This document shows positions 40,924-44,148 of a stretch of DNA of 64,000 nucleotides, in pieces. Position numbers and translations under genes: made by a program. The stretch is from Aromatoleum anaerobium (lineage in GTDB: Bacteria > Pseudomonadota > Gammaproteobacteria > Burkholderiales > Rhodocyclaceae), in assembly GCF_012910705.2 (NCBI RefSeq), contig NZ_WTVG02000040.1:620001-684000 (forward strand). The letters are read 5' to 3'. Within the stretch, counting starts at the first letter, position 1; each line of letters begins with the position of its first letter. Below the pieces are notes generated by a model. It worked only from the letters and a program-made list of their open reading frames with translations, made no database searches and was not told the DNA's origin.

Positions 40924-41139
40924 ATGAGCGAGGAAGCATTCGACAACGTTACCAGCCTGCAGGTGAGGCTGGCCGAACTCAGGGCCGAGCATCGTGACCT
41001 CGACGAGGCGATCAGCCACCTCGATGCTTCGCCGCAGGAAGATGAATTGCTGTTGCGCCGCCTCAAAAAGCGCAAGCTCGCACTGAAAGACAGGATCGCC
41101 GTCGTCGAACGCATGCTCGAACCCGACGAGCGGGCCTGA
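40924..41139 (+). CDS. YdcH/DUF465 family small protein
   Basis: 71-residue helical hairpin protein. Family pattern LRAEHRDLDEAISHLD and LRRLKKRKLALKDRIAVVERML. Function unknown; often coiled coil. The preceding 278 bp to the MltB start contain no other gene I can support. Confidence 0.85.
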   Translation: MSEEAFDNVTSLQVRLAELRAEHRDLDEAISHLDASPQEDELLLRRLKKRKLALKDRIAVVERMLEPDERA

Positions 41140-41167
41140 AGCCGGACGACGAGGATTCCGGCCGCCA

Positions 41168-42472
41168 ATGACCCAATACGGATCCCCCGCGCCCGAGACG
41201 CTCGCCCTGCATGCCGGGCAGTCTCCTGATCCGGCCTTCGGCGCCCGCGCGACGCCGATCTACTTCACCGCTGGCTACGTCTTTCCGGATGCCGATCACG
41301 CCGCGGCGCTGTTCAACCACGAACGCCCGGGGCACGTCGATACCAGCCACTCGAACCCCACCAACGCAGTCCTCGAGGAGCGCGTCGCGGCCCTTGAAGG
41401 GGGCATCGGCGCGATTGCGCTGGCGAGCGGCCAGGCTGCGCTGCATGTCGCGATCGCGACACTGATGGGCGCCGGCAATCATATCGTCGCGTCGCGTGCG
41501 CTAGGCGGTGCGGCGCGCAATCTGCTGGCCCACACGCTGCCGCGCTTCGGTATCCGGACGACCTTCGTCGATCCGCGCCGCCCGGACGAATGGCGCGACG
41601 CGATCAGGCCCGAAACCCGGCTCCTGTTCGGCGAAGCGCTCGGCAATTTCGGCCTCGAGGTGCTCGACATTCCCGCCGTTGCCGCGATCGCCCATGCCCG
41701 GCGCGTCCCGCTGCTCGTCGATGCGACGCTGGTCACACCCTGCCTGCAGCGCCCGTTGTCGCTCGGCGCGGATCTGGTCCTGCATTCGGCCACCGAGTTT
41801 CTCGGCGGCCACGGCGTCGCCGTCGGCGGCCTGCTCGTCGATGGCGGGCGGTTCGACTGGGAGCAATCGGGCCTGTTCCCGACGCTGACCGAACCGTACG
41901 ACGGCTTTCACGGCATGGATTTCACCGAGGAGTCTTCGGTCGCGGCCTTCCTGCTGCGTGCCCGGTGCGAGGCGCTGCCGGACTTCGGCGCCTGTCTCTC
42001 GCCGATGAACGCATTCCAGATCCTTCAGGGCATCGAGACGCTGCCGCTGCGGATGCGCGCGCACGTTGCGAACGCACGTGCCGTGGCCACCCATCTTGCC
42101 GGTCAAGCACTCGTCGCACGAGTCGCGTATCCCGGACTCGCGCCCCATCCCGATCACGAGCTGGCGAGCCGCCTGTTACCGGATGGCGCGGGAGCGGTCC
42201 TGTCCTTCGAGCTGAGCGGCGGACGCGAGGCCGCCCGCGCCTTCATCGAGAGTCTGAAAGTGTTCTCGCACCTGGCGAACGTCGGCGACGCGAAGTCGCT
42301 CGTGAGCCACCCGTCGAGCACGACCCTTTCCCGCCTGTCCGCCGCCGCGCTCGCTGCCGCTGGAATCGGCGAAGGCACGCTGCGACTGTCGGTGGGGCTC
42401 GAGCACGTCGACGACCTGATCGAAGACCTGGACCGCGGATTGTATGCGGCGGGCCGGGTGGTTGGAGGATAA
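41168..42472 (+). CDS. Cys/Met-metabolism (MetY-like) protein lacking PLP-site residues
   Basis: 434-residue full-length member of the Cys/Met metabolism PLP enzyme family, closest in pattern to O-acetylhomoserine sulfhydrylase ([65 protein letters not shown]). The Schiff-base Lys in SATKFLGGHG is Glu (codon GAG at 41795-41797, residue 210). The Y-x-R phosphate motif before NPT reads DTS, the cofactor-stacking Tyr of LYGG is absent, and VDNT reads VDAT. The fold is intact and uninterrupted, so this is probably a pseudo-enzyme. Followed 5 bp later by an alpha/beta hydrolase. Confidence 0.85.
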
Positions 42473-42477
42473 AGACG

Positions 42478-43287
42478 GTGCAGCTGACGGTATCCGGGCT
42501 CCCGGTCTTCATCTACACCGCCAGGCAGACTTTCGCTCCCGCGCAGCCGGTCGTCGTGTTGCTGCATGGCGCCGCTCACGATCACAGCGTGTGGAACTTC
42601 CAGGCACGCCACCTCGCGCACCACGGCTTTTCGGTTCTCGCCCCGGATCTCCCCGGGCATGGCCGCTCCGGCGGCGCGCCGCTCGCGTCGATCGAAGCGC
42701 TCGCAGACTGGCTCGCGGCGCTGCTCGATGCGGCCGGCGTCCGGCAGGCCGCCGTCGCCGGTCACAGCATGGGATCGCTCGTCGCGCTGCAGGCGGCGGC
42801 ACAGTTCCCCGACCGCTTCACGCAGCTGATTCTGCTCGGAAGCGTCGCGCCGATGCCGGTGGCCGCACCGCTGCTGTCCGCCGCAAACGATGACCGGCCC
42901 ACGGCCCACGCAATGATCAACCAGTGGTCCTACACTTTCGCCTCGCAGCTCGGGGCGAGCGCCGTGCCGGGAACCTCGCTCACGGGGCTGAATCGCCGCC
43001 TCATGGAACGGCAGGACGACGCCGTGCTGGCCACCGACCTCGGCGCCTGCAACGCCTACGAAGGGGGTCTCGCAGCGGCTGGCGCCGTCCGCTGCCCGAC
43101 GCTGCTGCTATGCGCCGAGCGCGACCAGATGACCCCACGGCGCGCAGTCAAACCCTTGCACGAAGCGCTTGCCGGGGTAGCCGACGGCGCACGTATGATA
43201 TCCATTCCTCGTGCCGGGCATGCGATGCTGGCCGAGGCCCCCGATGCAGTGGGCAATGCCATACGGAGCTTCCTCACCCGCAACTGA
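42478..43287 (+). CDS. Alpha/beta hydrolase
   Basis: 269 residues starting at GTG 42478, with GGAGG 9 bases upstream. Alpha/beta hydrolase fold with HGAAHDHSVW, nucleophile Ser in AGHSMGSLVAL, acid in CAERDQMTP and His in RAGHAML. Substrate unknown. Placed just after the MetY-like gene and likely co-transcribed. Confidence 0.85.
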   Translation: MQLTVSGLPVFIYTARQTFAPAQPVVVLLHGAAHDHSVWNFQARHLAHHGFSVLAPDLPGHGRSGGAPLASIEALADWLAALLDAAGVRQAAVAGHSMGSLVALQAAAQFPDRFTQLILLGSVAPMPVAAPLLSAANDDRPTAHAMINQWSYTFASQLGASAVPGTSLTGLNRRLMERQDDAVLATDLGACNAYEGGLAAAGAVRCPTLLLCAERDQMTPRRAVKPLHEALAGVADGARMISIPRAGHAMLAEAPDAVGNAIRSFLTRN

Positions 43288-43350: not shown

Positions 43351-44148
43351 ATGTCGCAGCCGGAGGATGTCAAGCTGGGAACCGAGGAGTGGGTGTTTCC
43401 CGTTGTCAGGGACGTCGGGGGAGGTGCGCCGTTGCACTGGATCAGGAGCGGCTGGGCGGATTTACGTGCCTGCCCGATACCGAGCCTGTTCTACGGATTC
43501 TGCTTTGCCGCGATGGGATTGCTCGTCACGATGGTTTTCGAGCACGCCTACGCCTACACCGTCGCCCTCACGTCGGGCTTTCTCCTGCTCGGGCCGTTTC
43601 TCGCGATGGGCCTCTATGAGATCAGCCGGCGGCGCGAGCAAGGTGCGGCTTGCGCGCTCCTTCCGACCCTGACCGTATGGAAGCGCAACGCCGGCAACAT
43701 CGGCATTTTCGCCGTCGTGCTGGGCATCGTGTTCCTCGTCTGGGCGCGCGCATCGATGGTCGTGTTCGCGCTGTTCTACACCAACGAGATGCCGAACCTG
43801 TCAGGCTTTCTGACGCAGTTGCTGGCCCTCGACAACCTCGAGTTTTTGCTCGTGTATTTCGGCGTCGGCCTGATCTTTGCGACCATCGTGTTTGCCGTCA
43901 GCGTGATTTCCGTGCCATTGATGCTCGACCGCAACCAGGACGCGATTTCGTCGATGTTGACGAGCGTCGGGGCGTTGATGCGCAACCCCGGCGCGATGAT
44001 CATCTGGGCTTTCATGATCGCCGGCCTCACGGTGATCGGATTCATGACCTTCCATCTCGGGCTGGTGGTGCTGATGCCGATCGTCGGCCACGCCAGCTGG
44101 CACGCGTATCGCGACCTCGTCGTGCAGCCGGGCGTGCCAGCAGGCTGA
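43351..44148 (+). CDS. DUF2189 membrane protein
   Basis: 265 residues with about six transmembrane helices and the family start FPVVRDVGGGAPLHWIRSGW and LLGPFLAMGLYEISRR. Function unknown. Ribosome site AGGAGAGAG. A polycistronic link to the two genes before it is possible (63-bp gap). Confidence 0.85.
   Translation: MSQPEDVKLGTEEWVFPVVRDVGGGAPLHWIRSGWADLRACPIPSLFYGFCFAAMGLLVTMVFEHAYAYTVALTSGFLLLGPFLAMGLYEISRRREQGAACALLPTLTVWKRNAGNIGIFAVVLGIVFLVWARASMVVFALFYTNEMPNLSGFLTQLLALDNLEFLLVYFGVGLIFATIVFAVSVISVPLMLDRNQDAISSMLTSVGALMRNPGAMIIWAFMIAGLTVIGFMTFHLGLVVLMPIVGHASWHAYRDLVVQPGVPAG

Follow-up and report, generated by a model that had tools for sequence, protein, structure and literature searches.

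A MetY-Family Protein of Aromatoleum Without the PLP-Binding Lysine: A Candidate Pseudoenzyme Under Purifying Selection

Introduction

LCB1/SPTLC1 of serine palmitoyltransferase is a homologue of a PLP enzyme which lacks the PLP lysine and works in a complex, as described in the accessible part of the source (PMC3794620). The MetY-like protein of Aromatoleum anaerobium considered here resembles it in that a homologue without the PLP lysine is retained in both cases (PMC3794620, in the same part). The difference, as far as that text goes, is that LCB1 pairs with a Lys-bearing homologue, whereas the MetY-like protein is devoid of the residues lent in trans and its gene adjoins an unrelated hydrolase gene. 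Another example is provided by the antizyme inhibitors AZIN1 and ADC, regulatory homologues of ornithine decarboxylase without activity, of which human ADC retains the lysine (PMC2748086, available excerpt). The likeness lies in an inactive homologue of a PLP enzyme, and the difference in that AZIN1 and ADC, as the excerpt presents them, come from another PLP enzyme family. Deoxyhypusine synthase is not a PLP enzyme. Its trypanosomatid paralogue is catalytically dead and is kept as an activator of its partner, according to the accessible portion of PMC3663545. A dead copy would be kept in both systems; a partner is proven, in that portion, only for the trypanosomatid one.

The closest described system is the PRK08134/NF006004 MetY family itself, to which the protein is orthologous by score and neighborhood. 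It differs from this family in the absence of the Schiff-base Lys and of both Tyr residues sandwiching the PLP ring, and in the change of 13 of 144 invariant sites. No MetY-type pseudoenzyme was found in the accessible parts of open-licence papers, and the open-licence literature yielded nothing related on Aromatoleum and O-acetylhomoserine. We consider it moderately likely that the MetY-like protein has no catalytic activity and that its fold has been retained for a role without PLP, perhaps together with the adjoining hydrolase. The Lys form and the dead form adjoin the same neighbor genes in sister species of one genus, and therefore a non-catalytic role can be tested by comparing the two forms side by side. 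Annotation pipelines relying on PRK08134 would assign to this copy an enzyme name and a reaction which it should not perform. Moreover, the constant hydrolase neighbor offers a clue to what the whole PRK08134 gene pair does.

The Gene and Its Family

The window, i.e., the whole analyzed stretch of 64,000 nucleotides, carries the candidate pseudoenzyme gene of the MetY family (PRK08134/Cys_Met_Meta_PP) at 41168–42472 of the forward strand. The open reading frame reported in the first-pass annotation was confirmed, with an ATG start and 434 aa. Its product matches NCBIfam NF006004/PRK08134 with 750 bits over residues 1–431 (cut-off 636) and Pfam PF01053 (Cys_Met_Meta_PP) at 4e-114. The O-acetylhomoserine sulfhydrylase of PDB entry 4kam aligns with residues 10–431 (E 1.9e-129), which bears out the whole-length likeness to this enzyme previously seen by eye. 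Judged by sequence comparison, the gene is a member of the PRK08134/MetY family by descent, as the curated cut-off is passed and the neighborhood is that of the Lys-bearing orthologues. The structure predicted from three sequences had a mean pLDDT of 41.6 and was not used as evidence.

Residues Contacting PLP

The cofactor site of the superfamily is described for the cystathionine gamma-lyase of L. plantarum. In the available part of that source (PMC7483736), the PLP ring is flanked by Y97 and by Y43 from the adjacent subunit, the phosphate contacts G73, S74, S191, S193, Y43′ and R45′, N1 is bound to D169 and O3 to N144, and the Schiff base is formed with K194. Mapping by motif and spacing gives Y113, Y58′, G88, Q89, S207, T209, R60′, D185, N160 and K210 as the putative equivalents of these ten contacts in the MetY-like protein.

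Codon 210 (41795–41797, forward strand) is GAG, and the Glu claimed at the position of the Schiff-base Lys is indeed present, in common with four further Aromatoleum genomes; these five are referred to below as Glu-type. Codons 58–60 (41339–41347, forward strand) encode Asp-Thr-Ser in place of Tyr-x-Arg, with which one subunit reaches the ring and the phosphate of the PLP in the other. The previous reading of DTS was right and Asp58 occurs in all five species, but the Ser at position 60 is confined to the window's species; DTR stands in the other four. Codons 113–116 (41504–41515, forward strand) encode Gly-Gly-Ala-Ala for Tyr-Gly-Gly-Ser; the window reads LGGA for LYGG, and the reported loss of the ring-stacking Tyr113 extends to all five genomes. 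The residues of a functional MetY, the Lys of SATK and the Tyr of both Y-x-R and LYGG, are thus replaced by Glu, Asp58 and Gly/Cys113 in five of five Glu-type species.

Three of the ten contacts (K210, Y58, Y113) are gone in all five species and four, with R60, in the window's species, so that the statement that most cofactor contacts are lost was too strong. The six kept throughout are Gly88, Gln89, Asn160, Asp185, Ser207 and Thr209; the pyridine-nitrogen Asp and the phosphate-site Ser and Thr are among them. The reading of VDAT as a further lost contact was rejected, since the residue after Asp185 is Ala, Ser or Gly in 78 of 78 Lys-type orthologues and Asp185 itself is kept.

These replacements bear on the question of whether the cofactor is still held. 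The Glu-type protein probably binds little or no PLP, because neither ring-stacking residue is left and the surroundings of the phosphate site have gained two carboxylates. Alternatively, PLP or a PLP-amino acid aldimine could still be bound without a Schiff base, the protein acting as a sensor, a carrier or a slow catalyst. The six conserved contacts, joined by Arg60 in four of the five species, speak for this option, as does the K194A variant of the L. plantarum cystathionine gamma-lyase, of the same superfamily, which was crystallized with a PLP-cystathionine external aldimine (PMC7483736, available part). Nevertheless, both residues sandwiching the ring are missing, and Glu210 together with Asp58 should bring negative charge near the phosphate site, and retention of PLP is decidedly unlikely.

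The same carboxylates allow another proposal, which is doubtful as well. The former PLP pocket would then have been remodeled and not just vacated: Glu210 and the conserved Asp185 of one subunit could form a three-carboxylate site at the dimer interface with Asp58 from the neighboring subunit. Cations, polyamines or other compounds would be possible ligands, and the tetramer could function without PLP as a sensor or as a regulatory subunit of the hydrolase. Cys267 is a further fixed change named with this proposal. If it were true, a protein of the MetY fold would have gained a new ligand and a new partner.

Distribution of the Change

All 17 Aromatoleum genomes searched contain one copy each of the MetY-like orthologue (80–100% identical). 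Glu210, Asp58 and Gly/Cys113 are found in five of them, which form one subclade (G000, G001, G002, G003 and G009) and whose four other proteins are 92–94% identical to that of the window. The remaining 12, the Lys-type orthologues, have Lys210, Tyr58, Arg60 and Tyr113 and are 80–83% identical to the window protein. A search of 199 genomes of the family, drawn from a larger group, gave 72 with a match at E ≤ 1e-150, 6 of these being Aromatoleum, and the Lys, Tyr, Arg and Tyr residues are present in 66 of 66 orthologues from other genera. The four residues are therefore kept in all 78 other orthologues (12 from Aromatoleum and 66 from other genera). On the codon level, all five Glu-type sequences have GAG at position 210; those five of the Lys type for which codons were compared have AAG or AAA. 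A variation is seen next to this position: the first Gly of the GGH following the Lys is replaced by Cys, Ala or Ser in the Lys-type orthologues L077, L086, L089 and L094, and likewise in L095, L096, L105 and L106.

The first-pass annotation had proposed to look for the changes among relatives and held that orthologues with the Lys would point to a sequencing error or to very recent decay. Glu210 and Asp58 proved to be common to five species, while Ser60 is private and the Ala after Asp185 is normal. Lys-bearing orthologues do exist, 78 of 78, but Glu is fixed in the whole subclade, and Glu210 is therefore neither an error nor very recent decay. An error in sequencing or assembly has practically no likelihood and was rejected, as identical codons occur in five separate genomes, including that of Aromatoleum buckelii U120. 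Since the five species share the loss, it is older than their common ancestor; they have one origin, and hence represent one event. Transfer of the gene from elsewhere was also rejected, because both clades have the same neighbor genes.

The extent of the change was assessed at the 144 positions at which all 78 Lys-type sequences agree. Thirteen of these are altered in all five Glu-type sequences (S36, Y58, I61, L94, Y113, G115, S116, K210, R267, G269, R271, I380 and M390), and 12 further ones in some of them. The same count gives 0–4 in 16 Lys-type control clades of 2–11 close relatives and 0–2 in single Lys-type genomes. Invariant contacts are changed at three of nine positions vs. 10 of 135 for the other invariant sites, a modest enrichment (hypergeometric P 0.035). 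Private changes at invariant sites in the window's species are R60S, P161F and H387L. The Glu-type lineage is also the faster one, with a mean identity of 0.762 to twenty orthologues from other genera vs. 0.841 for the Lys-type Aromatoleum proteins.

Neighboring Genes

The gene upstream, which is separated by a 28 nt gap, encodes a DUF465 protein (40924–41139, forward strand; Pfam PF04325, 3.3e-14) and is probably in the same operon. Among the loci of other genera, tblastn detected this gene in 23 of 24. Within Aromatoleum, ORF scores revealed it in 16 of the 17 loci; the remaining one, L024, comprises only 2765 bases at the end of a contig. Directly downstream lies the alpha/beta hydrolase gene (42478–43287, forward strand), with a GTG start 5 nt past the stop of the MetY-like gene and with intact GHSMGS, Asp and His motifs. 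The hydrolase has no NCBIfam match above cut-off among the best 25 of 38. The next gene, encoding a DUF2189 membrane protein (43351–44148, forward strand; PF09955, 1.2e-38), was included as a selection control.

All 41 loci analyzed (5 Glu-type, 12 Lys-type and 24 from other genera) have a hydrolase homologue with the GHSMGS motif in their flanks, and it is directly downstream in all 35 loci in which the position was checked (11 Aromatoleum, 24 other genera). Both its acid motif and its His motif can be recognized in 39 of the 41, the exceptions being a locus at a contig end (L048) and a frameshifted one (L012 of G009). In the latter Glu-type genome, the frameshift lies near codon 233 of the hydrolase (L111, 8048–8847) and represents either a true change or a draft-assembly error. 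The MetY-like gene is flanked by the same genes in 11 of 11 Aromatoleum stretches, and the order of DUF465, PRK08134 MetY-like and alpha/beta hydrolase genes seen in the window (40924–43287) looks conserved across genera of the family. The spacing suggests that the MetY-like gene is co-transcribed with the hydrolase gene.

Selection After the Loss

The constraint on the gene was estimated with a branch-class codon model using F3x4 codon frequencies, kappa and a separate omega for each class, implemented in our own code and not in PAML. In the 22-taxon analysis, the background had an omega of 0.039, the stem one of 0.064 and the Glu-type crown one of 0.114; the stem is saturated (length 3.5), and support within the crown amounts to 66–80%. 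Fixing the crown omega at 1 worsened the fit by 147 log units. With 11 genomes, omega was 0.030 for the Lys-type and 0.116 for the Glu-type form. The four operon genes were compared in a nine-genome set, i.e., the 11 minus the Lys-type L116 and L117. In this set the values for the MetY-like gene were 0.018 in the Lys-type vs. 0.116 in the Glu-type genomes (2dlnL 54.5). The corresponding pairs were 0.052 and 0.027 for DUF465 (2dlnL 0.6), 0.104 and 0.164 for the alpha/beta hydrolase (2dlnL 3.1, P 0.08), and 0.049 and 0.049 for DUF2189 (2dlnL 0.1). Only the MetY-like gene thus displays a significant rise, which is about sixfold.

The crown value can be placed among those of other genes in the five Glu-type genomes alone, which are 0.032 for HtpG, 0.050 for GreB, 0.169 for MltB, 0.165 for EEP and 0.157 for CDF. 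It is lower than those of the neighboring genes MltB, EEP and CDF, and higher than those of HtpG, GreB, DUF465 and DUF2189. Within the crown, omega is 0.064 at the sites invariant in the Lys-type sequences vs. 0.165 at the remaining ones. Under neutrality, about 17 stop-making events would be expected, and the five Glu-type frames contain no internal stop; the G001 frame is two codons shorter, with no stop before codon 433 in any of the five. The MetY-like gene is therefore constrained after the loss, within the range of its neighbors; the constraint on its Lys-type sister form is three to six times stronger. The two features of a pseudoenzyme, a catalytic residue loss common to several species and purifying selection afterwards, are both found.

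The main and strongest rival to a retained non-PLP role is partial or slow decay. In this scenario, the enzyme is redundant and relaxed or decaying, other Cys/Met enzymes suffice, and the reading frame is partly held by translational coupling to the hydrolase. The rise of omega confined to one of the four operon genes is in line with it, as are the further losses of Arg60, Pro161 and His387 in the window's species. The hydrolase start (the nearest plausible one) lies 2–10 nt past the stop of the MetY-like gene in 11 Aromatoleum genomes, and with such tight spacing the frame could persist even if the protein had no role. The hydrolase frame of G009, a Glu-type genome, is itself shifted. However, the loss predates the five species and omega has stayed at 0.114–0.116, the formerly invariant sites are still the slowest, and no internal stop has appeared. 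Coupling alone would be insufficient for such a low level of nonsynonymous change. On these grounds decay is rated as unlikely. The previous claim of selection and not decay is thus mainly upheld by the shared loss, the low omega and the open frames, with the reservation that the constraint is weaker than in the Lys-type form and that three changes are private to the window's species.

Redundancy and Possible Partners

Besides the MetY-like protein, the genome of the window (4.56 Mb) encodes four Cys/Met PLP enzymes, each of which has the Lys. A MetY paralogue, 47% identical, is located on another contig, and such a paralogue (47–49%) is present in 17 of 17 Aromatoleum genomes. A full-length MetX match of about 460–470 bits also occurs in all 17; it is below the family cut-off of 500 and therefore perhaps of the succinyl type. 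With four Lys-bearing enzymes and the MetX match kept, losing the activity of the MetY-like protein looks affordable. The setting is alike in both clades, and loss of the whole pathway was rejected in view of the MetX match, below cut-off as it is, in every genome.

The presence of the paralogue raises the possibility of a hetero-oligomer with the true MetY, analogous to that of LCB1 with LCB2 in serine palmitoyltransferase. In the related L. plantarum cystathionine gamma-lyase, a tetramer, neighboring subunits contribute jointly to the active sites, a Tyr and an Arg being lent by one subunit to the active site of its neighbor (PMC7483736, available part), and the paralogue occurs throughout the genus. 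Nonetheless, an LCB1-like helper would lend residues to its partner's site, and the residues lent across the dimer are the ones lost, Tyr58 in five of five Glu-type species and Arg60 in the window, which makes such a helper unlikely. Furthermore, both MetY copies coexist in all 12 Lys-type species too. The hetero-oligomer is therefore very improbable, and the earlier suggestion of a partner of a true MetY is disfavored in its simplest form. The alpha/beta hydrolase is a better candidate partner. In all five Glu-type species, one of 64 invariant sites of the hydrolase is altered vs. 13 of 144 for the MetY-like protein.

The preferred reading, a dead fold with a non-PLP role, can be outlined as follows. 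At its present locus, the gene goes back to a regular PLP-dependent member of the MetY family, probably co-transcribed with the alpha/beta hydrolase gene. Comparison of the two forms shows that, in the ancestor of one Aromatoleum subclade, the Schiff-base Lys was replaced by Glu and the ring-sandwiching Tyr residues by Asp and Gly/Cys. Without the Lys and both Tyr, no MetY chemistry would be expected and PLP would probably not be held. Since the loss, according to the codon models, the protein has been under purifying selection. Its most likely role would be that of a non-catalytic binding or scaffold protein, most plausibly acting with the adjoining hydrolase as the candidate partner.

Rarity and a Case in Helicobacter

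In nature, members of the MetY/cystathionine family appear to lose the PLP lysine only rarely. A scan of 84,980 species genomes, which covered G-first codons at the Lys position within a strict motif and possibly omitted near relatives of the window, gave three matches: Aromatoleum buckelii, Helicobacter sp. 15-1451 and one Planctomycetota contig. The last was set aside as a chance match, as it contains no MetY-like ORF of at least 150 aa and its best similarity (22% identity) leaves the motif uncovered. Among 369 genomes of the class, the strict pattern recovered the Lys form in only 9 and a form with a C-, G- or T-first codon in 1, the window's own.

The Helicobacter protein (L040, 3563–4783) has an intact frame of 406 aa, is 39% identical and carries Glu in place of Lys; it likewise has [10 protein letters not shown]. 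All of the 25 NCBIfam matches listed for it are below cut-off, and no close copy was found in four other genomes of the genus (best 31–35% identity). The Lys-to-Glu change in Helicobacter is apparently independent, and would thus have taken place at least twice in the MetY family. In a three-way alignment, the Helicobacter protein lacks the Y-x-R segment; LYGG is replaced by LCNR, GNP by GRL and the C-terminal Arg by Tyr. The Asp and the Ser/Thr are kept.
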